A DNA stretch of 64,000 nt from Streptomyces sp. NBC_00490 (GTDB lineage Bacteria; Actinomycetota; Actinomycetes; Streptomycetales; Streptomycetaceae), in contig NZ_CP107869.1 of the NCBI RefSeq assembly GCF_036013645.1, positions 1,550,001 to 1,614,000 of the forward strand. The letters run 5' to 3'. Position numbers and translations under genes: made by a program. Positions within the stretch are counted from its first letter, which is position 1; each line of letters begins with the position of its first letter. Positions 4,267 through 36,249 of this stretch are shown here, piece by piece. The notes beneath the pieces are model-generated. The model searched no databases and was not told where the DNA came from. It worked only from the letters and a program-made list of their open reading frames with translations.

Positions 4267-4328
4267 CGCCCATCTCCCCTCTGAAAGAACGAGAACAGGT
4301 TGCAGGAGCGGCCCGGGCTCTTCAAGAG

Positions 4329-4350
4329 TTTTCTGACAGTCAGTCAGATT
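4329..4350. promoter_or_regulatory. Inverted-repeat operator TTTTCTGA-N7-TCAGATT
   Basis: TCTGA at 4332-4336 and TCAGA at 4344-4348 form a perfect inverted repeat with a 7-base spacer, flanked by T-runs. It sits between the divergent enoyl-CoA hydratase and acyl-CoA synthetase genes. The same arrangement, identical in both arms and flanks, recurs at 17843-17864 before the nitronate monooxygenase/synthetase pair. This suggests a common TetR- or GntR-type repressor of acyl-CoA genes. No candidate regulator gene lies beside either site. Confidence 0.65.
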
Positions 4351-4431
4351 TCTTCGCGCGGAGCCTTCACAGTTGGGGCGCCCTTTGCTCTGATGACCGG
4401 CAACCGGTGCGGAGCGAGGTCAGGAGGAGCG

Positions 4432-6042
4432 GTGGAGTACAACCTTGCCGACCTGTTCGAGTCGGTCGTCGACGTGGTCCCGGACCGCGAGGCGCTGGTG
4501 TACATCGACGTCCCCGGCACGGGCGCGGAGCGCCGGCTGACGTACGCGGAGCTGGACACGGCGGCCAACCGCATCGGTCACCATCTGATCGACAGCGGGA
4601 TACGGCCGGGTGAGCACGTCGGACTGCACATGTACAACGGCATCGAGTACCTCCAGGTCGCGCTCGGCTGCCTGAAGGCCCGGGCCGTGCCGGTGAACGT
4701 CAACTACCGCTACGTCGAGGAAGAGTTGGTCTATCTCTACCGGGACGCCGATCTGGTGGGCCTGGTCTTCGACGCGGAGCTCACCGACCGGGTGGCCGCC
4801 GCGCTGCCGCTGACCGAGAAGCTGCGCCACCTGGTGCGCGTGGGCGACGCCGTGCCCGGCGTGGACGCCGTGGCCTTCACGGACGCGGAGGCCGCCGGGT
4901 CCCCCGGGCGCGGGTTCCCGCAGCGCTCCGGCGACGACCAGTTCATCATCTACACCGGCGGCACCACCGGGATGCCCAAGGGTGTGATGTGGCGCCAGGA
5001 GGACCTGTTCTTCTCGGGGATGGGCGGCGGGGCGCCGACCGGCGAGCCGGTGAAGAAGCCCGAGGAGCTCGCCGAGCGGGTCGCGGCCGGCGGCTCGGGG
5101 ATCACCTTCTTCCCCACTCCCCCGCTGATGCACGGCACCTCCACGCTCACCGCCTTCATCGGCTTCAACTTCGGCCAACGGGTCGTACTGCACCGCAAGT
5201 TCTCGCCCGAGGACGTGCTGCGGACGATCGAGCGGGAGAAGGTCACCAGCATGTCCCTGGTCGGGGACGCGATGCTGCGGCCGCTGATCGACGCCCTCAA
5301 AGGCCCCATGAAGGGCACGGACACCTCGTCGATGTTCAGCGTGTCCTCGTCGGGGGCGATCATGTCGGACACCGTGCGCCGGCAGTTCCTGGAGCTCGTC
5401 CCGAACGTGATGCTGCTCAACAACTTCGGCTCCTCGGAGTCCGGCTTCAACGGCACGGCCACCGACGACGCCGGCCCCGAGCGCGGCTTCCGGGTGCGGG
5501 TCAACTCCCGTACGCAGGTCGTCGATCCGGCCACGCACGAGCCGGTCGCCGTGGGCGAGGTGGGCCGCGTCGCGCAGTGCGGCCATGTGCCGCTGGGCTA
5601 CTACAACGACCCGCGCAAAACCGCGGAGACCTTCTTCGAGAAGGACGGTGAGCGCTGGGTGCTGCTCGGCGACATGGCGACCGTGGACGAGGACGGCGTC
5701 GTCATCGTCCTCGGCCGGGGCTCCCAGTGCATCAACACCGGCGGCGAGAAGGTGTACCCCGAAGAGGTGGAGCAGGCGCTCAAGTCCCACCCCGACGTGT
5801 ACGACGCGCTGGTGGCCGGGGTGCCGGACACCACGTGGGGCCACCACGTGGCAGCCGTCGTACAGCTGCGCGACGGCGCGCCCCGGCCGTCCCTCGACGA
5901 CATCCGGACGCACTGCCGCGGCCGGCTCGCCGGGTACAAGATCCCGCGTCAGCTGGTGATCGAGGACTCCATCCAGCGGTCCCCCAGCGGGAAGGCCGAC
6001 TACCGGTGGGCGCGGGAGGTGGCGGTGCGGGCGGACGGGTGA
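4432..6042 (+). CDS. Acyl-CoA synthetase, FadD19-like
   Basis: 536 residues from GTG at 4432, chosen because AGGAGGAG precedes it by 3-4 bases; in-frame starts upstream lie in the operator region and lack a ribosome site. The ANL adenylation motifs are complete: YTGGTTGMPKG (phosphate loop), GSSES, and a C-terminal GGEKVYPEEVE hinge followed by the PSGKADYRW catalytic-lysine motif. The N-terminus (ADLFESVVDVVPDREALVY) and the VNVNYRYVEEEL segment resemble actinobacterial FadD19/FadD17 ligases that activate steroid side-chain acids. It probably supplies the acyl-CoA for the divergent hydratase/thiolase-like unit. The substrate is inferred. Confidence 0.9.
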   Translation: MEYNLADLFESVVDVVPDREALVYIDVPGTGAERRLTYAELDTAANRIGHHLIDSGIRPGEHVGLHMYNGIEYLQVALGCLKARAVPVNVNYRYVEEELVYLYRDADLVGLVFDAELTDRVAAALPLTEKLRHLVRVGDAVPGVDAVAFTDAEAAGSPGRGFPQRSGDDQFIIYTGGTTGMPKGVMWRQEDLFFSGMGGGAPTGEPVKKPEELAERVAAGGSGITFFPTPPLMHGTSTLTAFIGFNFGQRVVLHRKFSPEDVLRTIEREKVTSMSLVGDAMLRPLIDALKGPMKGTDTSSMFSVSSSGAIMSDTVRRQFLELVPNVMLLNNFGSSESGFNGTATDDAGPERGFRVRVNSRTQVVDPATHEPVAVGEVGRVAQCGHVPLGYYNDPRKTAETFFEKDGERWVLLGDMATVDEDGVVIVLGRGSQCINTGGEKVYPEEVEQALKSHPDVYDALVAGVPDTTWGHHVAAVVQLRDGAPRPSLDDIRTHCRGRLAGYKIPRQLVIEDSIQRSPSGKADYRWAREVAVRADG

Positions 6043-6199
6043 TTCCCCGGCCCCCTTCCTCGGCTTTTACTCGGTTTTTCCTCGGTTTTCGTCCCGTGGC
6101 ATTGAACCGAAGGTGACGTGCGGACGTACTGGTGGTGGCAGGCTCGGCCACAGGGCCCTGTTGGCATGCCATCGCAAGACCGTACGGAAGGACCGCCGG

Positions 6200-7954
6200 G
6201 TGTCGCTCTTCACACCTCGCTCTCGTCAGCTGCCGGAAGCCACCGAGGGCGGTGCGGAGACGGACGACCAGGAGACGGGGCAGCGGACGGTCGAGGAGGT
6301 CGGGGAGAAGCCCGGCTGGTTCGGCTGGCGGACCCGCTTCCCCCGTACCGCGCGCGGCGTGACCATCGGCACGACCGTCCTGGCAGCCGCCCTGGTGCTC
6401 GGCGCGCTGCTCATGCCCAACCGTCTCGACCGGATGAACGCCCAGGCGTTCCTGCGCCTGCCCGTGGAGGCGATCCTCCTCGCGGGCCTGCTCCTCGCGC
6501 TGCCGAGGCGGGCACGGCGCATCACGGCCGTCGTCTCGGGCGTGCTCATCGGGCTGTTCACCATCATCAAGTTCCTCGACATGGGCTTCCGCCAGACCCT
6601 GGCCCGCCCCTTCGACCTGGTCTTCGACTGGATCCTGCTGGACGACGCGACCGATTTCGTCCGGGAGTCGTTCGGCCGCTCGGGGCAGGTGCTCGCGGTG
6701 ACCGGCGCGATCGTGCTGGCCGTCGCCGTCCTCGCCCTGTGCACGCTCGCCGTGGTGCGGCTGACGAACCTCCTGGTCCGGCACCGTCCCGTCGCGCTGC
6801 GCAGCACGCTCGTCCTCGGCATCGTGTGGATCGTCTGCTTCACGCTGGGCGTGCAGTTCGGCGGGGTCCCCTTCGCCACCAAGGGCAACACGCAGTTCGT
6901 CGCCAACCGGGTGCAGCAGGTCCGCGACGGCATCTTCGACGCCCAGGAGTTCGAGAAGAAGGCCACCGTCGACGCCTTCGCCAAGACCCCGCCCGACCAG
7001 CTGCTGACCGGGCTGCGCGGCAAGGACGTCCTGTTCACCTTCATCGAGAGCTACGGCCGGGTCGCCATCGACGACCCGGCGATGGCCCCGCAGATCGACG
7101 CGGCCCTCCAGCAGGGCAACAGCAGGCTCAAGGCCGCCGGTTTCGCCTCGCGCAGCGGCTGGCTCCGCTCGCCCGTGACGGGCGCGGGCAGCTGGCTCGC
7201 CCATTCGACGTTCCTGTCCGGCCTGTGGGTCAAGAACCAGCAGCGCTACCGGAGCCTGACCGGTGGCGACCGCGCGACCCTGACCAGCTACTTCCAGAAG
7301 ACCGGCGCCTGGCGCACGGTCGGTATCGTGCCGGGGGTGCGCAAGGCCTGGCCCGAGGGCAAGTACTTCGGCCTCGACCACATCTACGACTCCACGCACC
7401 TCGGCTACAACGGCCCCTACTTCAGCTGGACGCCGGTGCCCGACCAGTTCAGCCTGGAGGCCTTCGAGCGCCTGGAGCACGGCAAGGAGAACCGCGACCC
7501 GATCATGGCGGAGATCATCCTGGCCTCCAGCCACAACCCCTGGTCCCCCATCGCCCGCATGGTCGACTGGGACCAGCTCGGTGACGGCTCGGTCTTCGAG
7601 CAGATCAAGAAGGAGGGCACGGACCCCAAGGAGGTCTGGAAGAGCTCCAAGTCCGTGCGCACGGAGTATCGCAAGGCGATCGAGTACTCGCTGCAGAGCC
7701 TGACCGAGTGGGTCGAGCGCTACGGCGACGACGACACGGTCCTCGTCTTCCTCGGCGACCACCAGCCCGTCCCGACGGTCACCGGGGGCGACACCAACAA
7801 GGACGTGCCCATCACCATCGTCGCCCGCGACCCGAAGGTCCTCGACCGGATCGCCGACTGGGGCTGGACGGACGGACTCAAGCCCGCGGGGAACGCGCCG
7901 GTGTGGGGCATGGACACGTTCCGCGACCGGTTCATGACGGCGTACGCGAAGTAA
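6200..7954 (+). CDS. Membrane-anchored sulfatase/phosphoglycerol-transferase-type enzyme
   Basis: 584 residues from GTG at 6200, with GGAAGGA about 8 bases upstream. About five membrane segments lie in the first 215 residues (near 55-73, 88-102, 107-126, 158-180, 196-215) after an acidic cytoplasmic tail. An extracellular alkaline-phosphatase-like domain follows, with FIESYGR (nucleophile-loop region), a SHNPWSP element and the metal-binding LGDHQP motif near the C-terminus. The layout is that of LTA-synthase-like sulfatases, which transfer or cleave phosphoglycerol or sulfate groups at the cell surface. Its last 23 bp overlap the end of the convergent hydrolase gene. The substrate is unknown. 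Confidence 0.82.
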   Translation: MSLFTPRSRQLPEATEGGAETDDQETGQRTVEEVGEKPGWFGWRTRFPRTARGVTIGTTVLAAALVLGALLMPNRLDRMNAQAFLRLPVEAILLAGLLLALPRRARRITAVVSGVLIGLFTIIKFLDMGFRQTLARPFDLVFDWILLDDATDFVRESFGRSGQVLAVTGAIVLAVAVLALCTLAVVRLTNLLVRHRPVALRSTLVLGIVWIVCFTLGVQFGGVPFATKGNTQFVANRVQQVRDGIFDAQEFEKKATVDAFAKTPPDQLLTGLRGKDVLFTFIESYGRVAIDDPAMAPQIDAALQQGNSRLKAAGFASRSGWLRSPVTGAGSWLAHSTFLSGLWVKNQQRYRSLTGGDRATLTSYFQKTGAWRTVGIVPGVRKAWPEGKYFGLDHIYDSTHLGYNGPYFSWTPVPDQFSLEAFERLEHGKENRDPIMAEIILASSHNPWSPIARMVDWDQLGDGSVFEQIKKEGTDPKEVWKSSKSVRTEYRKAIEYSLQSLTEWVERYGDDDTVLVFLGDHQPVPTVTGGDTNKDVPITIVARDPKVLDRIADWGWTDGLKPAGNAPVWGMDTFRDRFMTAYAK

Positions 7955-8648
7955 GGTCCCGTCCGGCGAGGAAGGGTTCCACGACCGCCAGGAACTCCTC
8001 GGGCCGCGTCTCGTGCACGAGGTGCCCCGCGTCGACCGTCACCAGCCGCGCGTCGGGAAGTCGCTCGGCGACAGCGGCGACCTGCTCCTGAGGGATGGAA
8101 CTGTTCGGCCCACCGCCCACCACCAGCGTGGGCATGGTGATCCGCCCCATGTGGTCCCACCACACAGGATCGGGGGCGTTGCGCCGGCCGTCGGTCGCCC
8201 GGATCATCGCCCAGTCGAACGGCAGATCGCCGTCGGGGCGCTCGGCGGGCGGCCGGGGCGGGTCGAGCGGGAGGGGCGCGGGTACGTCCTCCAGGACCAG
8301 GCGGCGTACGAGACCGGGCGTCTGCTGGGCGAGGAGGCAGGCGATGAGGCCGCCCAGGGAGTGGGCGATCAGGTCGGTGCGAGCGACACCGAGAGCGGTC
8401 AGGAACTCCCGGATGTCGTCGCGCATCTCCTCGAGCCCATAGGTGCCGGGCCAGTCACTGCGTCCGTGACCGCGCAGGTCGGGGGCGTACAGCCGGCGCG
8501 GATGCGGTCCTGCGGCGAGCCGCTCGGCGATCGGGGTCCAGTCCGCGCCGTCGGCGCCCCGGGAGTGCAGCAGGAGGACGGGCGGCGCGTCCGCGGGACC
8601 CCAGGTGCGGTACGCGAGGGTGATGCCGTTGGCCTTGAGGGTCTCCAT
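7932..8648 (-). CDS. Alpha/beta-fold hydrolase
   Basis: 238 residues. Alpha/beta-hydrolase hallmarks: the oxyanion region VLLLHSRGADGADW, the nucleophile elbow A-H-S-L-G-G (about residue 98), and the catalytic His near the end in V-D-A-G-H-L-V-H. The Asp lies in the region around PTLVVGGGPNSSIP. The family includes esterases, lactonases, haloperoxidases and C-C hydrolases, and nothing here fixes the substrate. ATG at 8648 is the first plausible start. The next hydrolase gene upstream ends 37 bp away on the same strand. The 3' end overlaps the convergent sulfatase-like gene. Confidence 0.87.
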   Translation of the reverse strand: METLKANGITLAYRTWGPADAPPVLLLHSRGADGADWTPIAERLAAGPHPRRLYAPDLRGHGRSDWPGTYGLEEMRDDIREFLTALGVARTDLIAHSLGGLIACLLAQQTPGLVRRLVLEDVPAPLPLDPPRPPAERPDGDLPFDWAMIRATDGRRNAPDPVWWDHMGRITMPTLVVGGGPNSSIPQEQVAAVAERLPDARLVTVDAGHLVHETRPEEFLAVVEPFLAGRDLTSRTPS

Positions 8649-8685
8649 GCCGGGCAACGTATCCGAGGCGCGGCGGACGACGCTT

Positions 8686-9540
8686 CTACTCTGCCGAGGG
8701 CAGAGGCGCCCCGAGGAACGTGGCGATCCGTCGTACGAACCACTCCGGGTCGTCCAGCCACGGATAGTGCCCGGCACCGGGCTGCACCACGAGCGCGGCG
8801 TGCGGGAACACGTCCGCGGCACGGCGGACGAGCTCGGGCCGGGGGGCGTTGTCGACCTCCCCCGCGAGCAGGAGCACCGGACGATCCAGCCGCCCGAGCG
8901 CCTCCCGGGTCGCGGGCGGGTCATAGGCGCCGGCCGATCCGTACACGTCTCCCGCCTCGTCGTTGAACTCCTCGTCCGCGCGCGCGTCGTGGGCCGCGGC
9001 CGCCTCGTCCCAGCGGCCGTAGAAGAAGGGCGCGAACACGGGGTCGTAGCCGCCCGTCCCGTCGAGCCAGGCCGCGAACGCGGGGAACGCCTCCTCGTAC
9101 CACGGCTCGTCCTTGCGCAGTGGAGCCGCGGCCAGCCGGTCCTCGTCCGTCACCGGCATGCCCAGCGCCCACGGAATGGCCGTGACCAGCGCCAGCCGCC
9201 GTACCCGTGTCGGATACCGGGCGGCGTACAGCATGGCGAGGCTGCCGCCGGCCGAGTGCGCGAGCAGATCCATCTCCGCCAGCCCCAGGTGGACTCGCAG
9301 CGCCTCCACGTCGTCCACGAGCCGGTCGCAGCGGTAGGTCGCCGGATCAGCGGGGGTCGCGGAGGCTCCGGTGCCCCGCAGGTCGAGCAGGACGAGTCGC
9401 CGGTGCGCGCCGAGGCCGCCCAGGTCCCCGAGGTAGCCGGAGGCGCGCATGGGCCCGCCGGGCAGGACGACGAGGGGCGGCCCCTCACCTGTCAGGTGGT
9501 AGGCGAGTTCGGTCCCGTCGTACGAGGTGAAGGTCGGCAT
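8686..9540 (-). CDS. Alpha/beta hydrolase, proline iminopeptidase-like
   Basis: 284 residues from ATG at 9540, preceded by GAGGATC. The sequence V-V-L-P-G-G-P (oxyanion hole), the G-T-G-A-S element and the nucleophile elbow A-H-S-A-G-G-S place it in the proline-iminopeptidase-like group. The C-terminal catalytic His is in Q-P-G-A-G-H-Y-P-W-L-D-D. Such enzymes release N-terminal proline or hydrolyse small esters and amides. It is the first of two same-strand hydrolase genes and diverges from paaK across about 197 bp. Specificity is not predictable from the sequence. Confidence 0.87.
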   Translation of the reverse strand: MPTFTSYDGTELAYHLTGEGPPLVVLPGGPMRASGYLGDLGGLGAHRRLVLLDLRGTGASATPADPATYRCDRLVDDVEALRVHLGLAEMDLLAHSAGGSLAMLYAARYPTRVRRLALVTAIPWALGMPVTDEDRLAAAPLRKDEPWYEEAFPAFAAWLDGTGGYDPVFAPFFYGRWDEAAAAHDARADEEFNDEAGDVYGSAGAYDPPATREALGRLDRPVLLLAGEVDNAPRPELVRRAADVFPHAALVVQPGAGHYPWLDDPEWFVRRIATFLGAPLPSAE

Positions 9541-9684
9541 GGCGCTGATCCTCACGGTCCCGCGTCCCCGTCGCAACGGAGTTCCTTCCCGGAGCCCGGT
9601 CGACGCGGGACCGGCGCGTCGAGAAAGTGCGGGCCGACCCCTTGCTTGATCGCCGGTGGCCTGGATTACTGATCCTCAGCATCT

Positions 9685-9702
9685 CGACCGAATGATCGGT
9701 CG
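9685..9702. promoter_or_regulatory. Perfect 18-bp operator palindrome upstream of paaK
   Basis: CGACCGA-ATGA-TCGGTCG, two perfect 7-base arms around ATGA, lies 35 bp before the paaK start. The ACCG-N6-CGGT core resembles the published Corynebacterium PaaR (TetR family) site pattern as I recall it. It probably represses paaK, possibly the divergent hydrolases as well, until a phenylacetyl-CoA-like inducer appears. Confidence 0.65.
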
Positions 9703-9737
9703 CCCGTATTGCCGTGGTTGGTGAAGGAGACGTTCCG

Positions 9738-11033
9738 GTGGCGGACGCGACGGAGCTGTGGGACGCGGGGGAACGGCTCGACGAGCAAGGGCTGAAGGCA
9801 CTCCAGTTGGAGCGGCTGCGGACGTCTCTGCGGCACGCGTACGACCATGTGCCGTTCTACCGGGAGTCCTTCGACAAGGCGGGTGTCGGTCCCGACGACT
9901 GCCGGTCCCTCGCCGATCTCGCCCGCTTCCCCTTCACCACCAAGGCGGACCTGCGCGAGAACTACCCGTACGGGACGTTCGCCGTACCGCGGGACCGCGT
10001 CCGCCGTATCCACGCGTCGAGCGGCACCACCGGACGCCCGACGGTCGTCGGCTACACGGACGGCGACCTCTCCCTGTGGTCCGACATGGTGGCCCGCTCG
10101 CTGCGGGCGGCGGGCGCCCGGCCGGGCGACATCGTCCATGTCGCCTACGGCTACGGCCTGTTCACCGGCGGCCTCGGCGCCCACTACGGCGCCGAACGGC
10201 TCGGCTGTACGGTCGTCCCCGCGTCAGGCGGCATGACGGCCCGTCAAGTCCAGCTGATCCAGGACCTGAAGCCCGGCATCATCATGGTGACCCCGTCGTA
10301 CATGCTGACGATCCTGGACGAGTTCGAGCGCCGGGGCATCGACCCGCGCGGCACCTCCCTCCGCGTCGGCGTCTTCGGTGCCGAGCCCTGGACGGAGCGG
10401 ATGCGCCGGGAGATCGAGGAGCGGTTCGCGATCGACGCGGTCGACATATACGGGCTGTCCGAGGTGATCGGTCCGGGAGTGGCGCAGGAGTGCGTGGAGA
10501 CCAAGGACGGGCTGCACATCTGGGAGGACCACTTCTTCCCGGAGGTCGTCGACCCGTTCACCGGTGAGGTGCTGCCGGACGGCGAGAAGGGCGAACTGGT
10601 CTTCACCTCGCTCACCAAGGAGGCGATGCCCGTCATCCGGTACCGGACCCGGGACCTGACGCGGCTGCTGCCGGGCACGGCACGCGTGTTCCGCCGGATG
10701 GAGAAGGTCACCGGCCGCAGCGACGACATGGTGATCCTGCGCGGCGTGAACCTCTTCCCCACCCAGATCGAGGAGATCGTCCTGCGGACGCCCGGTGTGG
10801 CGCCGCACTTCCAGCTCCGCCTCACCCGCGAAGGCCGCCTCGACGCCCTCACCGTACGTGCCGAGGCCCGCCCCGGCGCGACCCCCGAGGCGCGGGAAGC
10901 GGCCGCGTCGGCGATCACCGCCGCCGTGAAGGACGGCATCGGCGTCTCCGTCACCGTCGAGATCGTCGAACCCGAGTCGCTGGAACGGTCGGTGGGCAAG
11001 ATCCGCCGGATCGTGGACCTGCGCCCCCGCTAG
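9738..11033 (+). CDS. paaK: Phenylacetate-CoA ligase
   Basis: 431 residues, close to known PaaK enzymes. GTG at 9738 is preceded by GAAGGAGA at 7 bases. PaaK features include the N-terminal LRTSLRHAYDHVPFYRE segment, the ATP loop SSGTTGRPT (about residues 93-101), YGLSEVIGPGVAQEC, and the C-terminal domain with V-T-G-R-S-D-D-M and R-G-V-N-L-F-P. It activates phenylacetate with ATP and CoA to phenylacetyl-CoA, the entry step of the paa epoxidation pathway. No other paa genes (epoxidase subunits, ring hydrolase) are in the window, so the pathway would have to be completed elsewhere. Confidence 0.93.
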   Translation: MADATELWDAGERLDEQGLKALQLERLRTSLRHAYDHVPFYRESFDKAGVGPDDCRSLADLARFPFTTKADLRENYPYGTFAVPRDRVRRIHASSGTTGRPTVVGYTDGDLSLWSDMVARSLRAAGARPGDIVHVAYGYGLFTGGLGAHYGAERLGCTVVPASGGMTARQVQLIQDLKPGIIMVTPSYMLTILDEFERRGIDPRGTSLRVGVFGAEPWTERMRREIEERFAIDAVDIYGLSEVIGPGVAQECVETKDGLHIWEDHFFPEVVDPFTGEVLPDGEKGELVFTSLTKEAMPVIRYRTRDLTRLLPGTARVFRRMEKVTGRSDDMVILRGVNLFPTQIEEIVLRTPGVAPHFQLRLTREGRLDALTVRAEARPGATPEAREAAASAITAAVKDGIGVSVTVEIVEPESLERSVGKIRRIVDLRPR

Positions 11034-11043
11034 ACGACAGGGC

Positions 11044-12543
11044 CTAGGCGAACCGGTCCCTGAGCTCCCGCTTGAGGATCTTCCCGCTCGCGTTCCGGGG
11101 CAGCTCGTCCACGAACAGCACCCGCTTCGGCGCCTTGAAGTGGGCGAGCTTCTCGCGTGCGTGGGCGATGAGTTCGGCCTCCTCGACCTCTTCCCCCGCG
11201 CGGGGGACGACGACGGCTGTCACGGCCTCGATCCAGCGCTCGTCCGGCAGACCGATGACCGCCACCTCGGCGACGGCGTCGTGGGTGTAGAGCGCGTCCT
11301 CGACCTGGCGTGAGGCGACCAGTACGCCCCCGGAGTTGATGACGTCCTTCACACGGTCGACGATGGTGAAGTAGCCGTGGGCGTCGCGGACCGCGAGGTC
11401 GCCGGAGTGGAACCAGCCGTCGCGGAAGGCGTCGGCGGTCTCCTCGGGCTTGTCCCAGTAGCCCTCGCACAACTGCGGTGAGCGGTAGACGATCTCGCCC
11501 GGCGTGCCGTCGGGGACCTCCTTGCCGTCCTCGTCGACCACGCGGGCGTCGACGAAGAGCACCGGGCGGCCGCACGAGTCCATCCGGCCCTTGTGCTCGT
11601 CCGGAGCCAGGACCGTGGCCAGCGGGCCGATCTCGCTCTGCCCGAAACAGTTGTAGAAGGCGAGCTTCGGGAGCCGTTCGCGCAGCCGCTCCAGGACGGG
11701 CACCGGCATGATCGAGGCGCCGTAGTAGGCCTTGCGCAGTCCGCCGAGATCGCGGGTGGTGAAGTCGGGGCGGTTAGACAGGCCGATCCACACCGTCGGC
11801 GGCGCGAAGAGGCTGTCCGCGCGGCCCTCCTCGATCAGGTCGAGGATCCGGTCGCCGTCGGGCGCGTCGAGGATGATGTTGGTCGCCCCGGCCGCCAGGT
11901 ACGGCAGCAGGAACACATGCATCTGCGCCGAGTGGTAGAGCGGGAGGGCGTGCACGGGACGGTCGCCCGCGCTCAGGTCCAGTGCCGTGATGGCGCTCAG
12001 GTACTCGTGCACCAGGGCGCGGTGCGTCATCATCGCGCCCTTCGGGAGCGCCGTCGTGCCCGAGGTGTAGAGCAGCTGGACCAGGTCCTCGCCGCGCGGT
12101 TCGGGCCCGTCGTACACGGGCGCCGACTCCAGCCGGGCCGGCAGCGCGTCGTCCGCGTCACGCAAGGGCAGGGTGCGTACGCCGTCCGGGAGGCGGTCCG
12201 CAAGGTCCGGGTCCGCGAGGACCAGTGCGCTGCCCGACTGGCGGACGATGTACGCCAGATCCTCGCCGGTCAGGTGCTGGTTCACGGGGACGTGCACCAG
12301 GCCCGCGCGGGCGCAGGCGAGGAAGGCGATGAGGTAGGCGTCGGAGTTGCGGCCGAACGCGCCGACCCGGTCGCCCGGCGACAGGCCTTCGGCGAGCAGG
12401 ACGCTCGCCGCGCGCGAGACGGCCTCGTCGAGTTCCTCGTAGGTCCATGAGCGGTCGCCGTACTCCACGGCGACCCGTGCCGGGGTGCGCCGGGCGCTGC
12501 GCCGCAGCACTCCGTCAACCGTGCTGCCGTGTCCAGGCGTCAT
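11044..12543 (-). CDS. AMP-dependent acyl/aryl-CoA synthetase
   Basis: 499 residues from ATG at 12543. The ANL superfamily motifs are LLYTSGTTALPKGAM (phosphate loop), YNCFGQSEIG, GWFHSGDLA, DRVKDVINSGGVLVASRQVE and the C-terminal PRNASGKILKREL catalytic-lysine motif. Conservation is complete, so it should be an active CoA ligase. Similar proteins are annotated as long-chain fatty-acid or benzoate/cyclohexanecarboxylate-CoA ligases; the substrate is open. It converges on paaK with 10 bp between the stop codons and is divergent from the N-acyl amidase gene. Confidence 0.9.
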   Translation of the reverse strand: MTPGHGSTVDGVLRRSARRTPARVAVEYGDRSWTYEELDEAVSRAASVLLAEGLSPGDRVGAFGRNSDAYLIAFLACARAGLVHVPVNQHLTGEDLAYIVRQSGSALVLADPDLADRLPDGVRTLPLRDADDALPARLESAPVYDGPEPRGEDLVQLLYTSGTTALPKGAMMTHRALVHEYLSAITALDLSAGDRPVHALPLYHSAQMHVFLLPYLAAGATNIILDAPDGDRILDLIEEGRADSLFAPPTVWIGLSNRPDFTTRDLGGLRKAYYGASIMPVPVLERLRERLPKLAFYNCFGQSEIGPLATVLAPDEHKGRMDSCGRPVLFVDARVVDEDGKEVPDGTPGEIVYRSPQLCEGYWDKPEETADAFRDGWFHSGDLAVRDAHGYFTIVDRVKDVINSGGVLVASRQVEDALYTHDAVAEVAVIGLPDERWIEAVTAVVVPRAGEEVEEAELIAHAREKLAHFKAPKRVLFVDELPRNASGKILKRELRDRFA

Positions 12544-12650
12544 GACACATGATCCTCGGTCCCGCACCGCGGGAGGTCAAGCACGGGTCCAGGACACATA
12601 CCCGTTGGTACGCTCAACCGCCCCTTCCCTCAATGACGTTGGGAGGCACG

Positions 12651-15044
12651 ATGCGCACCCGCCTCAGACGCATACTCGTCGCGGCAGTCGCCCTGCTCAC
12701 CGCCACGGCCGCGCTGCCGGCAGCCGCGGCCGAAGGCCACAACCGTCAGCAACACCCCTCGCACGGCGGCCTGTCCGCCACGATCCGCTACACCGAGTAC
12801 GGCATCCCGCACATCCTCGCGAAGAACTACACGGACCTCGGCTTCGGCACCGGCTGGGCACAGGCCGCCGACCAGGTGTGCACGCTCGCCGACGGCTTCG
12901 TGACCGTGCGCGGGGAACGCTCCCGGTTCTTCGGGCCCGACGCGGCGCCCGACTTCTCGCTCTCCTCGGCCGCCAGGAACCTCTCCAGCGACCTCTACTT
13001 CCAGGGTGTCCGGGAGGCGCGCACGGTCGAGAAGCTGCTCGCCGAACCGGCGCCGCGGGGGCCGAGCCGCCGGGCGAAGGACCTGATGCGGGGCTTCGCG
13101 GCCGGCTACAACACGTGGCTCGAGCAGAACCGCGTCACCGACCCCGCCTGCAAGGGCGCCGCCTGGGTCCGCCCGGTGACGGCCCTCGACGTGGCCGCGC
13201 GCGGCTTCGCGCTCGCCGTACTCGGCGGGCAGGGGCGCGGCGTGGACGGCATCACCGCCGCCCAGCCGCCCACGACCACCTCCACTGCGGCACCCGACGC
13301 CCAGGACACCGCCCGGGCGGCCCGGGAACTGCTGGCCGCCGACACCGCCGACATGGGCTCCAACGCCGTCGCCTTCAGCGGCACGACCACCGCGAACGGC
13401 CGCGGGCTGCTGCTCGGCAACCCCCACTACCCCTGGCAGGGCGGCCGCCGCTTCTGGCAGTCGCAGCAGACGATCCCCGGCGAACTCAACGTCTCCGGCG
13501 GCTCCCTGCTCGGCTCCGCGACGGTCTCCATCGGTCACAACGCGAAGGTGGCGTGGAGCCACACCGTCGCGACCGGCGTCCCCCTCAACCTCCATCAGCT
13601 GACGCTGGATCCGGCCGACCCCACGGCGTACCTCGTGGACGGCAAGCCGGAGAAGATGACCCAGCGCACGGTGACCGTCCGGGTCAAGGACGGCGCCCCG
13701 GTGACACGGACGCAGTGGTGGACCCGGTACGGGCCCGTGGTCACCTCGTTCGGCGCCTCGCTGCCCCTGCCCTGGTCCAGCACGACGGCGTACGCCCTCA
13801 ACGACCCCAACTCCGCCAACCTGCGCGCCTCCGACACCGCCCTCGGCTTCAGCAAGGCCCGCTCCACGGCGGAGGTGCTCGGCTCGCTCCGGCGCACACA
13901 GGGCCTGCCGTGGGTGAACACGGTCGCCGCCGACTCGGGCGGCCACACCCTGTTCACCCAGTCCCAGGTGCTCCCCCGCATCACCGACGAGCTGGCCCAG
14001 CGCTGCTCCACGCCCCTGGGCAAGGTCACCTATCCCTCCGCCGGGCTGGCGATCCTCGACGGCTCGCGTGGCGACTGCGCGCCCGGCTCCGATCCCGACG
14101 CCGTGCAGCCGGGTGTCTTCGGTCCGGCGAAGATGCCGACCCTCACGGACGCCGCGTACGCGGAGAACTCCAACGACAGCGCCTGGCTCGCCAACGCCGA
14201 CCGGCCGCTGACCGGGTACGAGCGGGTCTTCGGCACCATCGGCACACAGCGCTCGCTGCGGACCCGGGGCGCGATCGAGGACGTGTCGGCGATGGCACAG
14301 CGCGGTCGGCTGACCGTGCGGGATCTGCAGGCGCAGCAGTTCGCCAACCGGGTGCCCGCGGGCGACCTGGCCGCGGCCGACGCGGCGAAGGCGTGCGCGG
14401 CGCTGCCGGGAGGCACGGCAACGGGCAGTGACGGCAGAGCCGTTGATGTCGGCGAGGCCTGTGGGGTGCTCGCCGCATGGGACCGTACGGTGAACACCGA
14501 CAGCCGGGGCGCCCTGCTCTTCGACCGGCTGTGGCGGAAGATCCCCGCGGCCCAGCTGTGGAAGGTGCCGTTCTCGGCCGCCGACCCGGTGCACACACCG
14601 AACACCCTCAACACGGCGTCGCCAGCCTTCGCCACGGCCCTCGCGGACGCGGTCTCCGAGTTGCGGGCGGCGGGTATCGCGCTGAACTCCCCGCTCGGAC
14701 AGCACCAGTTCGTCGTACGCAACGGTCAGCGCATCGCGGTCTCGGGCGGCACCGAGTCCCTGGGCATCTGGAACAAGGTCGAGCCGGTGTGGGACCCGGC
14801 TCAGGGGGGCTACACGGAGGTCACCACCGGCTCCAGCTACATCCAGGCGGTCGGCTGGGACGGCAGCCGCTGCCCGGTGGCCCGCACCCTCCTGTCGTAC
14901 TCCCAGTCCTCGAACCCGAACTCGCCCCACTACAGCGACCAGACCCGGCTGTACTCCCAGGAGAAGTGGGTGACGTCCCGCTTCTGCGAGAAGGACATCC
15001 TGACGTCGCCCGGACTGAAGGTGGTCCATGTGCGCGAACGCTGA
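12651..15044 (+). CDS. Secreted penicillin/AHL acylase-family N-acyl amidase
   Basis: 797 residues, matching secreted Streptomyces/Actinoplanes acylases such as AhlM and aculeacin A acylase (about 790-800). A signal peptide (RRILVAAVALLTATAALPAAAA) leads into the alpha subunit. The autoprocessing site is M-G-S-N-A, making Ser237 the new N-terminal nucleophile of the beta subunit. The preceding Thr/Ala-rich linker is the expected excised propeptide, and the beta-chain N-terminus G-N-P-H-Y-P-W is typical. It should cleave long acyl chains from lipopeptides, penicillins or N-acylhomoserine lactones outside the cell. GGGAGG precedes the ATG. A strong bidirectional hairpin follows the stop. Confidence 0.92.
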   Translation: MRTRLRRILVAAVALLTATAALPAAAAEGHNRQQHPSHGGLSATIRYTEYGIPHILAKNYTDLGFGTGWAQAADQVCTLADGFVTVRGERSRFFGPDAAPDFSLSSAARNLSSDLYFQGVREARTVEKLLAEPAPRGPSRRAKDLMRGFAAGYNTWLEQNRVTDPACKGAAWVRPVTALDVAARGFALAVLGGQGRGVDGITAAQPPTTTSTAAPDAQDTARAARELLAADTADMGSNAVAFSGTTTANGRGLLLGNPHYPWQGGRRFWQSQQTIPGELNVSGGSLLGSATVSIGHNAKVAWSHTVATGVPLNLHQLTLDPADPTAYLVDGKPEKMTQRTVTVRVKDGAPVTRTQWWTRYGPVVTSFGASLPLPWSSTTAYALNDPNSANLRASDTALGFSKARSTAEVLGSLRRTQGLPWVNTVAADSGGHTLFTQSQVLPRITDELAQRCSTPLGKVTYPSAGLAILDGSRGDCAPGSDPDAVQPGVFGPAKMPTLTDAAYAENSNDSAWLANADRPLTGYERVFGTIGTQRSLRTRGAIEDVSAMAQRGRLTVRDLQAQQFANRVPAGDLAAADAAKACAALPGGTATGSDGRAVDVGEACGVLAAWDRTVNTDSRGALLFDRLWRKIPAAQLWKVPFSAADPVHTPNTLNTASPAFATALADAVSELRAAGIALNSPLGQHQFVVRNGQRIAVSGGTESLGIWNKVEPVWDPAQGGYTEVTTGSSYIQAVGWDGSRCPVARTLLSYSQSSNPNSPHYSDQTRLYSQEKWVTSRFCEKDILTSPGLKVVHVRER

Positions 15045-15074
15045 GTCCCACGCCGTCAGGGCGTAGCCGGACCC

Positions 15075-15112
15075 GGTGTCGTCCAGCTCTCCGGTGAGAG
15101 CCGGACGACACC
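15075..15112. terminator. Bidirectional hairpin terminator
   Basis: GGTGTCGTCC (15075-15084) pairs perfectly with GGACGACACC (15103-15112). Inside, GCTCTC and GAGAGC extend the stem around a CGGT loop. A smaller CCCCTG-CTG-CAGGGG hairpin follows at 15128-15142. The structure lies between the convergent acylase and acyl-CoA synthetase genes and could terminate both. There is no U-tract, as is common in Streptomyces. Confidence 0.75.
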
Positions 15113-15143
15113 GTCGGGTTCGGGGAGCCCCTGCTGCAGGGGT

Positions 15144-16697
15144 TCACACCTGGCGGACGCGGCCCTCCCAGTACGGGTCCCGCAGCCGTCGCTTGTACAG
15201 CTTGCCGTTGGGGTCGCGGGGCATCTCGGTGATGAAGTCGACCGTCTTCGGACACTTGTAGCCGGCGAGCCGGCCCGCGCAGTGGGCGAGGACGTCGGCG
15301 GCCAGGTCCGGTCCGGGTTCGTGGCCCGGGGCCGGTTCCACGACCGCCTTGACCTCCTCGCCCCAGTCGTCGTGCGGGATGCCGAAGGCGGCGGCGTCGG
15401 CGACCGCGGGGTGCTGGAGCAGGACGGACTCGATCTCGGCGGGATAGATGTTGACCCCGCCCGAGATGATCATGTCGATCTTGCGGTCGCGGAGGAAGAG
15501 ATAGCCGTCCTCGTCCAGGAGGCCGAGATCACCGACGGTGAAGAAGTCGCCTATGCGGTTCTTCTTCGTCTTCGTCTCGTCCTTGTGGTACGAGAACCCG
15601 CCGGTGTTCATCTTCAGGTACACGGTGCCCAGTTCACCGGGCGGCAGCCGGTTGCCGTCGTCGTCGAAGATCGCCAACTCGCTGATGGGCCAGGCCTTTC
15701 CGACCGTGCCCGGCTTCTTCAGCCAGTCCTCCGCGGTGGCGAAGGCGCCGCCGCCCTCGCTGGCCGCGTAGTACTCCTCCACACAGGGCCCCCACCAGTC
15801 GAGCATCGCCCGCTTCACATGGTCGGGGCAGGGCGCGGCGCCGTGGATGGCGTGCCGCATGGCGGAGACGTCGTAGCGCGCCCTGATGTCCTGCGGCAGC
15901 GCCAGCAGGCGGTGGAACTGGGTCGGGACCATGTGCGTGTGGGTGCATCGCTCCTGGTCGATCAGCCGGAGCATCTCCTCGGGCGTCCACTTGTCCATCA
16001 GCACCAGACGGTGGCCGATGTGCAGGGACGCGCTCGCGAACTGGAGCACCGCCGTGTGGTAGAGCGGCGAGCAGACGAGGTGCACGTTGTCGTCGTAGGG
16101 CCTGATGCCGAAGATGCCGAGGAAGCCGCCGAGGTAGGCCTCCTCGGGGAGCTTGCCGGGCAGCGGGCGACGGATGCCGCGGGGGCGTCCTGTGGTGCCC
16201 GACGTGTAGTTCATGACCCAGCCGAGGGTGCGGTCCTCGGGCGCCGACTCCGGCTGCCCTTCGAGGAGTTCGGCGTACGGGCGGAAGCCCTCGACCTCGC
16301 CGATCGCATACCGGTGGGTGGCGGGCAGGCCGGCCTCGTCGGCGGCCTGGCGGGCGGGGCCGGCGAAGCGCTCGTGGGCGAGGAAGACCTTGGCGCCGGA
16401 GTCGGCGACGATCCAGGCGATCTCCGGGCCCACGAAGTGGTGGTTGATCGGGACGAGGTAGAACCCGGCCTGGGTGGCGGCGAGATGGGCGGTGAAGAAG
16501 TCGACGCCGTTGGGCAGGACGACCGCGAAGGCGTCCCCGCGCTCCATGCCGGCGGCGCGCAGACCGTGGACGAGGCGGTTGGCGGCGGCGTGCAGCCGGC
16601 CGGCGGTCCATTTCTCGCCGTCGGGGGCGACGAGGACGGTGCGGTCGGGGTCGGCGGTGGCCTGGGCCCAGAAGCCGGGCGGGGGTGTGCTCGTCAC
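15144..16697 (-). CDS. Acyl-CoA synthetase (FadD family)
   Basis: 517 residues from GTG at 16697, which overlaps the TGA of the nitronate monooxygenase gene by 4 bp (GTGA), so translation is coupled. ANL motifs: MNYTSGTTGRPRG, YYAASEGGG, a hinge D-R-K-I-D-M-I-I-S-G-G-V-N-I-Y-P-A-E-I-E, and the catalytic-lysine motif PNGKLYKR. It activates a carboxylic acid to its CoA thioester. Pairing with a 2-nitropropane-dioxygenase-like flavoenzyme and an operator shared with the 4.4-kb synthetase locus argues for a role in the same fatty- or isoprenoid-acid programme. The substrate is unknown. Confidence 0.9.
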   Translation of the reverse strand: MTSTPPPGFWAQATADPDRTVLVAPDGEKWTAGRLHAAANRLVHGLRAAGMERGDAFAVVLPNGVDFFTAHLAATQAGFYLVPINHHFVGPEIAWIVADSGAKVFLAHERFAGPARQAADEAGLPATHRYAIGEVEGFRPYAELLEGQPESAPEDRTLGWVMNYTSGTTGRPRGIRRPLPGKLPEEAYLGGFLGIFGIRPYDDNVHLVCSPLYHTAVLQFASASLHIGHRLVLMDKWTPEEMLRLIDQERCTHTHMVPTQFHRLLALPQDIRARYDVSAMRHAIHGAAPCPDHVKRAMLDWWGPCVEEYYAASEGGGAFATAEDWLKKPGTVGKAWPISELAIFDDDGNRLPPGELGTVYLKMNTGGFSYHKDETKTKKNRIGDFFTVGDLGLLDEDGYLFLRDRKIDMIISGGVNIYPAEIESVLLQHPAVADAAAFGIPHDDWGEEVKAVVEPAPGHEPGPDLAADVLAHCAGRLAGYKCPKTVDFITEMPRDPNGKLYKRRLRDPYWEGRVRQV

Positions 16698-17803
16698 TGG
16701 CCGCTCCTTCCGGCGATGCGGTTGACGTGGTCGACGGCCTGCTCGAAGCCGCGGGTGAGGTCGTCGAAGACGGCCTGGACACTGCGTTCGCTGTTCATCC
16801 GGCCGACGATCTGTCCGACGGGGGTGCCGAGCAGGGGCTCGACCTCGTATTTCTGGATGCGTGTGAGGGCATCGGCGACGAGCAGGCCCTGGAGGGGCAT
16901 GGGCAGGGTGCCGGGGCCGTTCGGGTCGTCCCAGGCGTCCGTCCACTCGGTCCGCAGCTGGCGTGCGGGTTTCCCGGTCAGGGCGCGCGAGCGGACCGTG
17001 TCGCCGGAGCCCGCCTCCAGCAGCTTCCGCGTCACCGCGGGCGAGGACATCTCGGCCTCGGTGCAGGTGAGCCACAACGAGCCCAGCCACACACCCTGGG
17101 CGCCGAGCGCCAGCGCGGCCGCCACCTGCCGTCCGCTGCCGATGCCGCCCGCGGCCAGTACCGGCAGCGGGTCGACGGCGTCGACGACCTCGGGGGTCAG
17201 CACCATCGAGGCGATCTCGCCGGTGTGTCCGCCCGCCTCGTAGCCCTGCGCGACGACGATGTCGATGCCGCCTTCCTTGTGCTTGACGGCGTGCCGGGCG
17301 CTGCCCGCGAGCGCGGCGACGAGCACGCCCCGGTCATGTGCGCGGTCCACGACATCCGCGGGCGGCGAGCCGAGGGCGTTGGCGAGCAGCTTGATCGGAT
17401 AGTCGAAGGCGACGTCGAGCTGGTTGCGGGCGACCTGCTCCATCCACCCGGTGATCCGCCAGCCGGACACGTCCCCCTCGGCCAGTTCGGGCACGCCGTA
17501 CTTGGCGAGGGTGTCCTTGACGTACTGCCGGTGTCCCTCGGGGATCATGGCCTCGACCTCGGCCTCGGTCACCCCCTCGACCTTCTTGGCGGGCATGACG
17601 ACGTCCAGCCCGTACGGCCTGCCCTCGACATGGGCCTCGATCCAGTCGAGGTCGCGTTTGAGGTCGTCGGGGGCGGTGTAGCGGACCGCGCCGAGCACGC
17701 CGAAGCCGCCGGCCCGGCTGATGGCCGCAGCGACGGCGGGGAACGGCGTGAAGCCGAAGATGGCGTGCTCGACTCCCAGTTTCTTGCTCAGCTCCGTCTG
17801 CAT
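16694..17803 (-). CDS. Nitronate monooxygenase-like flavoprotein
   Basis: 369 residues. A TIM-barrel NMO/2-nitropropane dioxygenase: the N-terminal half has the substrate-side loop F-G-F-T-P-F-P, and the FMN phosphate site is formed by A-Q-G-Y-E-A-G-G-H-T-G and V-L-A-A-G-G-I-G-S-G-R-Q. The family oxidises nitronates, but in actinobacteria many members sit with acyl-CoA genes and may be enoyl reductases (FabK-like). It is the first gene of a two-gene unit with the downstream acyl-CoA synthetase. Its promoter region carries the TCTGA-N7-TCAGA operator and faces the divergent serine-hydrolase gene. Confidence 0.87.
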   Translation of the reverse strand: MQTELSKKLGVEHAIFGFTPFPAVAAAISRAGGFGVLGAVRYTAPDDLKRDLDWIEAHVEGRPYGLDVVMPAKKVEGVTEAEVEAMIPEGHRQYVKDTLAKYGVPELAEGDVSGWRITGWMEQVARNQLDVAFDYPIKLLANALGSPPADVVDRAHDRGVLVAALAGSARHAVKHKEGGIDIVVAQGYEAGGHTGEIASMVLTPEVVDAVDPLPVLAAGGIGSGRQVAAALALGAQGVWLGSLWLTCTEAEMSSPAVTRKLLEAGSGDTVRSRALTGKPARQLRTEWTDAWDDPNGPGTLPMPLQGLLVADALTRIQKYEVEPLLGTPVGQIVGRMNSERSVQAVFDDLTRGFEQAVDHVNRIAGRSGQ

Positions 17804-17842
17804 GGGCGCAGGATGCCGCAGTCCTCCGGAGGACGGAAGGGG

Positions 17843-17864
17843 TTTTCTGATGCTCCGTCAGATT
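17843..17864. promoter_or_regulatory. Second copy of the TTTTCTGA-N7-TCAGATT operator
   Basis: TCTGA at 17846-17850 and TCAGA at 17858-17862 are separated by TGCTCCG. Arms and flanking T-runs are identical to the site at 4329-4350 while the spacer differs, which is what a dimeric regulator site would show. It lies 40 bp upstream of the nitronate monooxygenase start and 25 bp before the divergent serine-hydrolase start. Confidence 0.65.
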
Positions 17865-17888: not shown

Positions 17889-19646
17889 ATGACTGATGAG
17901 GTGTCCACCGGACTGACCCGCCGTCACATCACCCGAAGAGCCCTTGCCTTGGGGGGCGCGCTGGCCATCGCCCCCTTCCCCGCCGGGCCCGCGGCCGCGT
18001 CCACCAGCCGCGGCACACTGCGCCACGGCACCCCGGCGCAGGCCGGCCTCCTCGCCGCCCACCTGCGCCAACTGGTCACCGACGCCGAGACGTTCCTCGC
18101 TCCCTCCCCCAAGCACCCCTGGTACGCGGGCGCCGTGCTGCTCGCCGGACGCGGCGACACCGTGGCGCTGCACCGGCCGATCGGCATGGCCGTGCGCTAC
18201 TCGGCGTACGACGAGAAGACCGACACCGGCGTCGAGTTCCCGCCCGAGGACCGCATCCCCATGGCCGAGGACACCGTCTTCGACCTGGCCTCGGTGTCCA
18301 AGCTGTTCACCTCCATCCTCGCGGTGCAGCAGATCGAGCGGGGCGCGCTGGAGCTGGAGGGCAGGGTCGCCGCGTACCTCCCGGAGTTCGCCGGCGCGGG
18401 CAAGCAGGGCATCACGATCCGTCAGCTCCTCACGCACACCTCGGGGTTCCGCGCCTGGATCCCGCTCTACAACGCACCGACGTACGAGGAGAAGCTCCAG
18501 CTCATCTGGAACGAGGCACCGCTCAACCCGCCGGGCACGAAGTACCTCTACTCCGACCTCAACCTGATCTCCCTCCAACTGGTCCTGGAGAAGATCACCG
18601 GCCGCGCCCTGGACACACTCCTCCACGACGAGATCACCGCCCCGCTCGGCATGCGCCGCACCCGCTTCAACCCGCCCGCCTCCTGGAAACCGGGGATCGC
18701 GGCGACAGAAGACGCACGCAAGCCCTGGTCCGGCCTCGACCGAGGACTGGTGTGGGGTGAGGTGCACGACGAGAACGCGTTCAGCCTGGGCGGAGTCGCG
18801 GGCCACGCGGGCGTCTTCTCCTGCGCCTGGGACCTGGCGGTCCTCGGCAGGACGCTGCTCAACGGGGGCTCCTACGGCCGGGCCCGCATCCTGCGTCGCG
18901 AGTCCGTGGAGCTGATGTTCACCGACTTCAACACCGCGTTCCCGGGGGACGAACACGGGCTCGGCTTCGAGCTCTACCAGCACTGGTACATGGGCGCGAT
19001 GGCGACACCGCGCACGGCCGGGCACACGGGCTTCACCGGCACGTCGCTGGTCCTGGACCCGACGACGGACTCGTTCCTGATCGTGCTGGGCAACTCGGTG
19101 CACCCGGTGCGGAGTTGGCGCTCCGGCTCCGCTCCCCGGGTGGCCGCCGCGAACCACCTGGCGCGCGCCGTTCCAGTACGCCCGCGGTACGGCCGCGACG
19201 CCTGGTTCTCCGGCATGGCGAGCGCCACGACGGCCACGCTCACCTTGCCGGCGCTCGACACGTCGTCCGGCGGCGCACGGCTGCGGTGCGCACTGTGGTG
19301 GGACACCGAACCCCAGGCGGACGCCCTCGCGTTGGAGGCGACGACGGACGACGGGGCGACCTGGCAGCCGGTCCCGTTCACGACCACACGGCCCGCCGAG
19401 ACGCACCCGACGGGCACGGTCACCGGCTGGTCGGGCCGTGTGTGGCACCGGCTCACGGCGGATCTGCCGGCGCACCCTCGACTGGCCCTGCGCTGGCGGT
19501 ACACGACCGACCGCTCGTACGTCGGCCGTGGAGCGTACGTCAACGGACTGCGCGTGGGCGCCGCCGACGGCCTCCTCTTCGACGAGACGCGCTCGAGCGA
19601 CGCCGAACGGATCACCGCCGTGGGATGGGTTCCGGCCGCCGACTGA
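17889..19646 (+). CDS. Tat-exported beta-lactamase-fold serine hydrolase
   Basis: 585 residues. The N-terminus has a twin-arginine type signal (TRRHITRRALALGGALAIAPFPAGPAA, shown in parts), so it is probably exported folded. The class C beta-lactamase/DD-peptidase fold has S135-V-S-K138 as the SxxK nucleophile motif, a Y-S-D motif in place of Y-x-N, and H-T-G as the third-strand motif. After about residue 430, a beta-rich accessory domain (L-R-C-A-L-W-W-D-T ...) of jelly-roll character follows, perhaps for surface or carbohydrate binding. Likely an esterase or peptidase rather than an antibiotic-resistance enzyme. It diverges from the nitronate monooxygenase gene. Confidence 0.85.
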   Translation: MTDEVSTGLTRRHITRRALALGGALAIAPFPAGPAAASTSRGTLRHGTPAQAGLLAAHLRQLVTDAETFLAPSPKHPWYAGAVLLAGRGDTVALHRPIGMAVRYSAYDEKTDTGVEFPPEDRIPMAEDTVFDLASVSKLFTSILAVQQIERGALELEGRVAAYLPEFAGAGKQGITIRQLLTHTSGFRAWIPLYNAPTYEEKLQLIWNEAPLNPPGTKYLYSDLNLISLQLVLEKITGRALDTLLHDEITAPLGMRRTRFNPPASWKPGIAATEDARKPWSGLDRGLVWGEVHDENAFSLGGVAGHAGVFSCAWDLAVLGRTLLNGGSYGRARILRRESVELMFTDFNTAFPGDEHGLGFELYQHWYMGAMATPRTAGHTGFTGTSLVLDPTTDSFLIVLGNSVHPVRSWRSGSAPRVAAANHLARAVPVRPRYGRDAWFSGMASATTATLTLPALDTSSGGARLRCALWWDTEPQADALALEATTDDGATWQPVPFTTTRPAETHPTGTVTGWSGRVWHRLTADLPAHPRLALRWRYTTDRSYVGRGAYVNGLRVGAADGLLFDETRSSDAERITAVGWVPAAD

Positions 19647-25842: not shown

Positions 25843-25856
25843 TAGAACGTGTTCCA
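25843..25856. promoter_or_regulatory. KstR-like operator TAGAACGTGTTCCA
   Basis: The site matches the mycobacterial/rhodococcal KstR pattern TnnAACnnGTTnnA at every fixed base and has 5 of 6 matched arm positions. It sits in the promoter region of the acyl-CoA dehydrogenase gene. KstR represses cholesterol-catabolic genes, so this links the unit to steroid-like acyl-CoA metabolism. No kstR gene is visible in the window. Confidence 0.65.

Positions 25857-34161: not shown

Positions 34162-36249
<2,088 letters not shown>

Follow-up and report, generated by a model that had tools for sequence, protein, structure and literature searches.

In mycobacteria, KstR (Rv3574) is an autoregulated TetR repressor that recognises the box TnnAACnnGTTnnA and, according to the part of the original report available to us (PMC1995591), has 16 further palindromic sites in one species and 31 in another. 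The targets given there include fadD19, echA19, ltp2-4 and other fad genes, and the Rv3515c/Rv3516 promoter was bound; the accessible part of a second paper (PMC3388012) likewise deals with KstR in mycobacteria. Here we describe a different palindrome, the putative operator TCTGAC-N5-GTCAGA, two copies of which lie in a stretch of 64,000 nucleotides (the window) from Streptomyces sp. NBC_00490 (contig NZ_CP107869.1, positions 1,550,001 to 1,614,000 of the forward strand). Sequence comparisons make it probable that one transcription factor, most likely a TetR protein with the C-terminal domain PF19352, controls about 20 promoters, many of them belonging to acyl-CoA and oxidoreductase genes of the steroid side-chain type.

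The two window sites read TTTTCTGA-CAGTCAG-TCAGATT at 4329-4350 and TTTTCTGA-TGCTCCG-TCAGATT at 17843-17864, as verified in the sequence, and the two 22-mers are identical in 15 of 15 non-spacer bases. The initial annotation had reported both arms and the flanking Ts as common to the two sites, with correct coordinates; its arms were retained, while its 7-base spacer had to be revised, as part of it is conserved. The variable centre comprises about five bases and the half-site is the 6-base TCTGAC, which in operator 2 reads TCTGAT on one side. A matrix from 17 other sites gave as consensus the 17-bp palindrome aTCTGACGG-N-CCGTCAGAt. Within the 22-mers, operator 1 (TCTGACAGTCAGTCAGA) occupies 4332-4348 and operator 2 (TCTGATGCTCCGTCAGA) 17846-17862, both without strand assignment. 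Operator 1 is placed between the divergent genes of an EchA19-like hydratase (3466-4266, minus strand) and a PRK07798-family acyl-CoA synthetase (4432-6042, plus strand), and operator 2 between those of a nitronate monooxygenase (NMO; 16694-17803, minus strand), which is followed by a FadD-type gene, and a hydrolase with a twin-arginine (Tat) signal (17889-19646, plus strand); both sites are therefore in divergent regions next to acyl-CoA genes, as first annotated. The exact core TCTGA-N7-TCAGA was found in the window only at these two positions. A weight matrix built from 17 promoter sites outside the window scored operators 1 and 2 at 32.6 and 30.6, compared with 7.3 for the third-best window position and a maximum of 15.3 over 20 mononucleotide shuffles of the window. 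The chance figure obtained for the window, a mean of 12.6, counts matches with up to 2 mismatches and says nothing on exact sites. In the own genome (10.8 Mb), the exact core occurred in 19 places versus none for the reversed control, and both this count and the matrix scores agree with the earlier view that the likeness of the two sites is unlikely to be due to chance. Two of the 19 places, about 100-120 bp from contig ends, are probably unrelated to the operator set.

When up to one mismatch was allowed, TCTGAC-N5-GTCAGA occurred in 57 places in the own genome versus 5 for the control. The surroundings were examined for 45 sites, i.e. 44 of these 57 places and one from the 19-place scan, with gene calls made by a simple codon-usage script; not included were the two places at contig termini, four close to the left terminus of contig 1 and seven that had been counted and left unlisted. 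In 21 of the 45 sites, A or T was present on both flanks, and of these 20 were intergenic and 19 were located not more than 250 bp upstream of a gene start; 10 of the A/T-flanked promoter sites serve two divergent starts. The other 24 sites showed mixed positions, with 7 inside genes. The genome scan suggested in the initial annotation thus placed the A/T-flanked matches predominantly upstream of gene starts, many of them of acyl-CoA-type genes. Among the 29 promoters served, the operator was not more than 110 nt from the start codon in 22, with 21 at 3-83 nt and one overlapping the start. The largest operator cluster consists of nine sites at 4.760-4.827 Mb. In four promoters of the cluster a further copy, CTGA[CT]-N5-[GA]TCAG, was present, at a distance of 25-27 bp from the first in three and of 60 bp in one; these tandem copies, located at positions 12928 and 4606 of locus stretch L023, 16166 of L024 and 14504 of L025, could allow cooperative binding. 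A general rule of leaderless promoters in which the operator covers the -35 region was considered and rejected, since a correctly placed TANNNT was present at 2 of 22 operator promoters versus 38 of 335 control starts, a control that is biased upward because the loci behind it had been selected for sites. The promoter geometry is, with these counts, not established.

Orthologous promoters of other genomes were then compared, as had also been proposed initially, and both window sites proved to be kept in Streptomyces. The EchA19-like promoters contained the operator with at most one mismatch in 20 of 20 cases, 17 of them exact; it preceded the aligned start by 82-87 nt in 18 promoters and by 97 and 126 nt in the remaining two. 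In the NMO promoters the operator was present with at most three mismatches in 21 of 21 cases (3 exact, 14 with one, 3 with two and 1 with three), at 59-60 nt in 20 and at 70 nt in one. In-gene controls of equal length showed 4-6 mismatches. A partial EchA19-like match (G001) and a third NMO copy without a locus (G052) were left out of these counts; here and below, G000 denotes the own genome, other G numbers other genomes, f numbers families (f1, Streptomyces), L numbers locus stretches and C1 contig 1. The EchA19-like and NMO genes were jointly missing at E <= 1e-70 in G003, G010 and G017 of 24 Streptomyces genomes, which suggests that they belong to one inherited block. In f3 the operator was found at neither the EchA19-like nor the NMO promoters (0/3 each), and in f16 it was found at the best NMO copy in 3/3 genomes, at the EchA19 promoter in 0/3 and at second NMO copies in 0/3. 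On a wider scale, WTCTGAC-N5-GTCAGAW was found in 35 of 41 genomes, the own one included (156 sites versus 0 for the reversed control), and TCTGACG-N3-CGTCAGA in 35 of 296 genomes of the class (125 sites versus 2). By inspection, many of the sites in two f16 genomes (G131 and G070) and one f3 genome (G034) precede genes for acyl-CoA dehydrogenases, CoA ligases, thiolases and MaoC proteins.

The candidate regulator is encoded at C1:4791323-4791955 of the own genome, inside the cluster at 4.76-4.83 Mb. It matched PF19352 (TetR_C_38) with 243 bits and the helix-turn-helix domain PF00440 (TetR_N) with 26.7 bits (cut-off 24). The same TetR recurred in operator-bearing clusters of G000 and G013 (f1), G034 (f3) and G070 (f16). 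In 80 genomes that were hand-picked, not random, for the TetR and KstR-like profiles, the PF19352 TetR was matched once, at E <= 1e-15, in each of 66, including 35/35 Streptomyces, and it was present in 45 of 47 site-bearing and 21 of 33 site-free genomes. The two site-bearing genomes without it, G082 and G151, have one site each. The phylogenetic profile alone is unable to pick the regulator, as this TetR is found in all 35 Streptomyces. The most informative observation was a form of the operator at the TetR gene itself. In f16 it was present at the gene's own start with at most two mismatches in 5/5 genomes, and in f18, likewise with at most two mismatches, in 7/7, each time 38 nt before the farthest listed in-frame TetR start. 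It was found with at most three mismatches in 3/3 of the f15 genomes examined (of 5) and with three in the single f14 genome, and a 3-mismatch form, CTGAC-NNN-ATGACA, takes in the TetR start codon in 26/26 of the Streptomyces examined (of 35) and 11/11 of the f3 genomes examined (of 12); nine Streptomyces, one f3 and two f15 carriers were left out of this count. The placement of the operator relative to the TetR reading frame varies between families, favouring a constraint on the DNA rather than on the protein. The recognition helix TSxATFYQYF was kept in 12/12 rows from six families. NF033703 (KstR) was not among the matches at E <= 1e-5 of the PF19352 TetR or of two orthologues. Sequence-profile matches of the candidate concerned chiefly its DNA-binding half, and among the matches listed in a first protein search only close Streptomyces relatives appeared. 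The AlphaFold2 model showed an all-helical TetR fold (pLDDT 85.8, pTM 0.77), with TM-scores of 0.76/0.82 against EthR (7ngg). Neither this operator nor a PF19352 regulator was described in any of the literature matches listed, in which few subscription journals were covered; the accessible part of PMC13176608 does not name the PF19352 family, and SCO1712 and SCO2319 yielded no useful literature among the matches listed.

A TetR dimer would accordingly be expected at the palindrome near the start codon, where it would block transcription, and a CoA-thioester intermediate of the pathway might release the repressor. The PF19352 TetR may also weakly repress its own gene. At the echA19-fadD19-type promoter of the window it would act jointly with a KstR-like regulator, and at the NMO promoter without KstR.

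Several observations weigh against this assignment. About 5 of the 19 promoter sites (the nearest gene of L031, and L040, L048, L049 and L054) have, by inspection, no evident acyl-CoA gene as nearest target. A strict site is lacking in 14 of the 35 TetR-bearing Streptomyces and in three f3 genomes (genus g5), so that presence of the TetR alone does not discriminate. The TetR-start form of f1 and f3 deviates in 3 of 12 positions, and that of f15 and f16 is partly coding; since a best match with exactly 3 mismatches was also found at 11 of 382 gene starts of the own genome, the Streptomyces form is weak when taken alone. In a distant f6 relative (G065), no operator with at most three mismatches was found at the TetR start. 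The f15 genome G110 contains 17 exact copies of TCTGACG-N3-CGTCAGA, and several of the sites in the seven stretches viewed (L088-L094) are not located before acyl-CoA genes. Further points on this side concern other proteins that might bind the operator.

One of these would be another regulator, either a different TetR or a member of another family, that is encoded elsewhere and has the PF19352 TetR gene as one more target. Regulators can work from afar, the search for TetR genes used a crude profile and covered the vicinity of sites only, the weakness of the Streptomyces TetR-start form fits as well, and another TetR gene (L048 3786-4526) adjoins a gene with a site. The occurrence of the PF19352 TetR in operator clusters of four genomes from three families, together with an operator variant at or just before its start in six families, argues against this explanation, which we regard as unlikely.

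Marginally less probable still is that the binder is the KstR-like protein, the equivalent in Streptomyces of the mycobacterial repressor, and that its motif has changed. This protein is encoded at C1:3574016-3574627 (L038 1817-2431) and matched NF033703 with 201.9 bits, below the cut-off of 280. In its favour, the KstR-like protein and the sites occur together, 39 of the 57 carriers of the protein being site-bearing; in G000 (L038) the distance from the end of its gene to a site is 2.6 kb, in G070 (L101) a relative is found at 4.7 kb from a site, and mycobacterial KstR has targets of the same gene kinds, fadD19 and echA19 included, in the available part of PMC1995591. The promoters of the KstR-like gene nevertheless carried the classic box TAGAACAAGTT[TA]CA in 11/11 Streptomyces and the related box AGAACAAGTTCC in 3/3 f3 genomes, and no TCTGAC operator with at most two mismatches was found upstream of the gene in the 11 Streptomyces. 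Elsewhere, G215 showed a box with one mismatch, and G052, G315, G087 and G050 showed neither motif. As the classic box is present in all 11 Streptomyces promoters, the protein probably works like KstR. In addition, G028 and five f15 genomes contained sites and no KstR-like protein at E <= 1e-35. The KstR-like protein was rejected as the binder on the basis of the classic box in its own promoters and of these site-bearing genomes without the protein. An operator-like palindrome, CCTGACGGAGCGTCAGG (CCTGAC..GTCAGG), was observed at +2 of the KstR-like match in 3/3 f3 genomes (L169-L171), a further point on the side of this protein; it possibly reflects cross-control of the KstR-like gene, or coding chance.

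That the palindromes are repeats or terminators between genes and not protein operators is very improbable and was rejected on their placement, with 19/21 A/T-flanked sites of the own genome upstream of starts, 10 with two divergent starts, and with the position kept over 20 and 21 orthologous promoters, even though several palindromes of G110 lie between or near gene ends and two own-genome copies lie at contig ends. The latter copies, TCTGACCTTCGGTCAGA at L001 101-117 and L017 90-106, were located within about 120 bp of both contig starts and are perhaps part of the telomere fold-back of linear replicons.

Between operator 1 and the EchA19-like gene, a KstR-box-like sequence, GAGAACAGGTTGCA (reverse TGCAACCTGTTCTC), with the core AACnnGTT, is present at 4291-4304 (no strand assigned). 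This core was kept in 18 of 20 Streptomyces EchA19-like promoters and in 0 of 21 NMO promoters. A KstR box, TAGAACGTGTTCCA, was also found at 25843-25856 (no strand assigned), upstream of a gene that by inspection is acyl-CoA dehydrogenase-like (24620-25798, minus strand) and whose start is 51 nt away. Three kinds of promoter thus occur in the window: the first combines the box and the new operator (4291-4304 and 4332-4348), the second has the new operator by itself (17846-17862) and the third has a KstR box (25843-25856). A second dual promoter was observed in L037, where a KstR box and a TCTGAC-type operator, at 5007 and 5067, are 60 bp apart in front of a MaoC-like gene. Outside Streptomyces, the echA19-type promoter showed a KstR box without the operator in f6 (TAGAACGTGTT; 9 of 10 loci, the tenth being a second, more distant copy) and in f3 (3/3). 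In f18, G087 had the exact operator and a box with one core mismatch, and G133 had one copy with the box only and another with neither motif. Neither motif was found upstream of the echA19-type gene in f16 (3/3) and f14 (1); on inspection, the DNA upstream there resembles the 3' part of a thiolase gene, so that the echA19-type gene may be operon-internal. The proposed order of steps at the echA19-type promoter would be the box only (f6 9/10, f3 3/3), then both motifs (Streptomyces 18/20; G087 of f18), then the operator alone at other genes such as NMO. We lean, with little more than even confidence, towards a KstR-independent PF19352 regulator of steroid-like side-chain catabolism in several actinobacterial families, which would have been superimposed on promoters that in mycobacteria are under the control of KstR alone.

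The targets, counted as the adjoining or next codirectional gene, include the EchA19-like hydratase and the PRK07798 acyl-CoA synthetase, a FadD3-family ligase (798 bits, cut-off 657), lipid-transfer thiolases (PRK07855, and PRK06059 at 433 nt from the site), a protein with a ChsH2-type OB domain plus its MaoC partner, and a 3-oxosteroid 1-dehydrogenase (KstD; 897 bits, cut-off 788). Also among them, with scores under the respective cut-offs, were an HsaB-like flavin reductase and an IpdE2-like acyl-CoA dehydrogenase. Further targets were a luciferase-like monooxygenase, short-chain dehydrogenase/reductases (SDRs), an amidohydrolase, a putative cyclase and an aldehyde dehydrogenase, and a tannase-like gene is located behind one cluster site. 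A TIGR03213-type ring-cleaving dioxygenase, which we take to stand in for the HsaC type, gave no match at E <= 1e-40 in G000, so that the full mycobacterial ring pathway is not evident. At the same threshold, the genomes tested from f3 (one), f16 (three) and f18 (one) likewise gave no match; matches were obtained in two f6 genomes, one of them above cut-off, and in two other Streptomyces below cut-off. To judge from the gene content, a different polycyclic or isoprenoid acid may be the substrate. Of the undescribed regulon for a branched or isoprenoid acid pathway that had been proposed initially, the regulon is supported by distribution, targets and orthologous promoters, and the pathway is one possibility, the enzymes being steroid side-chain-like with no TIGR03213-type match.

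As to the genes next to the window operators, the EchA19-like crotonase/enoyl-CoA hydratase, the first gene to the left of operator 1, matched NF005864 with 421.4 bits (cut-off 316) and the EchA19 model NF051848 with 373.5 bits, below the cut-off of 400. Three genes on the same strand, supported by open reading frame (ORF) and gene call, are located downstream: a gene at 2409-3350, assigned to the DUF35/OB type in the initial annotation, and, by inspection, a thiolase-like gene codirectional with the EchA19-like gene at 1369-2412 and a second thiolase-like or lipid-transfer-like gene at 206-1372. The first gene to the right, encoding the acyl-CoA synthetase, matched NF005863 with 749 bits (cut-off 543) and was termed FadD19-like because of its divergent pairing with the EchA19-like gene. 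To the left of operator 2, the first gene encodes a flavoenzyme of the NMO family (PF03060, 173 bits, cut-off 28) and is overlapped by the FadD-type acyl-CoA synthetase gene at 15144-16697 (minus strand; ORF and gene call, by inspection), with which it probably forms one operon. To the right, the first gene encodes an exported serine hydrolase of the beta-lactamase/esterase family (PF00144, 231.8 bits; PF20773, 34 bits) with an N-terminal twin-arginine signal, RRHITRRALALGG. Elsewhere in the window, a palindrome TGCAACTAGTTGCA was observed at 36236-36249 between the divergent genes 34162-36177 (minus strand) and 36296-37432 (plus strand).

The predicted regulator-operator pair concerns a TetR family that was not found described among the literature matches listed and is present in a single copy in each of the 35 Streptomyces genomes tested. 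It would join about 20 poorly annotated promoters into one regulon, and the compound degraded by the sterol side-chain-like enzymes of Streptomyces becomes testable. At the echA19-type promoter the new regulator appears to have been added to the old one.

With the KstR regulon, as given in the available part of its description, the Streptomyces target set shares the same kind of genes, and the Rv3515c/Rv3516 promoter is the counterpart of the window promoter at 4267-4431. The operator, however, is TCTGAC-N5-GTCAGA and not TnnAACnnGTTnnA, and the candidate TetR has a PF19352 C-terminal domain and no match to the KstR model; both operators are present at the Streptomyces echA19-like promoter, whereas the NMO promoter has only the new one. 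The nearest solved folds were those of EthR (ranks 1-25), DesT with palmitoyl-CoA (rank 27) and then the TetR-type FadR, with sequence identities to the candidate of about 12-20%; an EthR-like fold with DesT and FadR, in part solved with acyl-CoA, at lower ranks is weak evidence, drawn from the model, for an acyl-CoA ligand class. AccR, PaaR, PccD, SAV151 and SAV7471, which act on acyl-CoA supply in actinomycetes, are also TetR proteins, and most of their operators at acyl-CoA genes are palindromes, as far as the accessible part of PMC10933834 describes them, but the operators listed there differ (GTTAA-N6-TTAAC, AACGA-N4-TCGGT, W-TGACG-S-TG-Y-TG-W and GAGAACSWWCGTTCTC). The MftR operator, in the available part of PMC8728441, differs as well. 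The operator of SAV151, TCTGACATGGTGTCGTGTCAGA, given in the same part of PMC10933834, has the same outer arms (TCTGACA...TGTCAGA) but comprises 22 bp, compared with the 17 bp of the operator described here.

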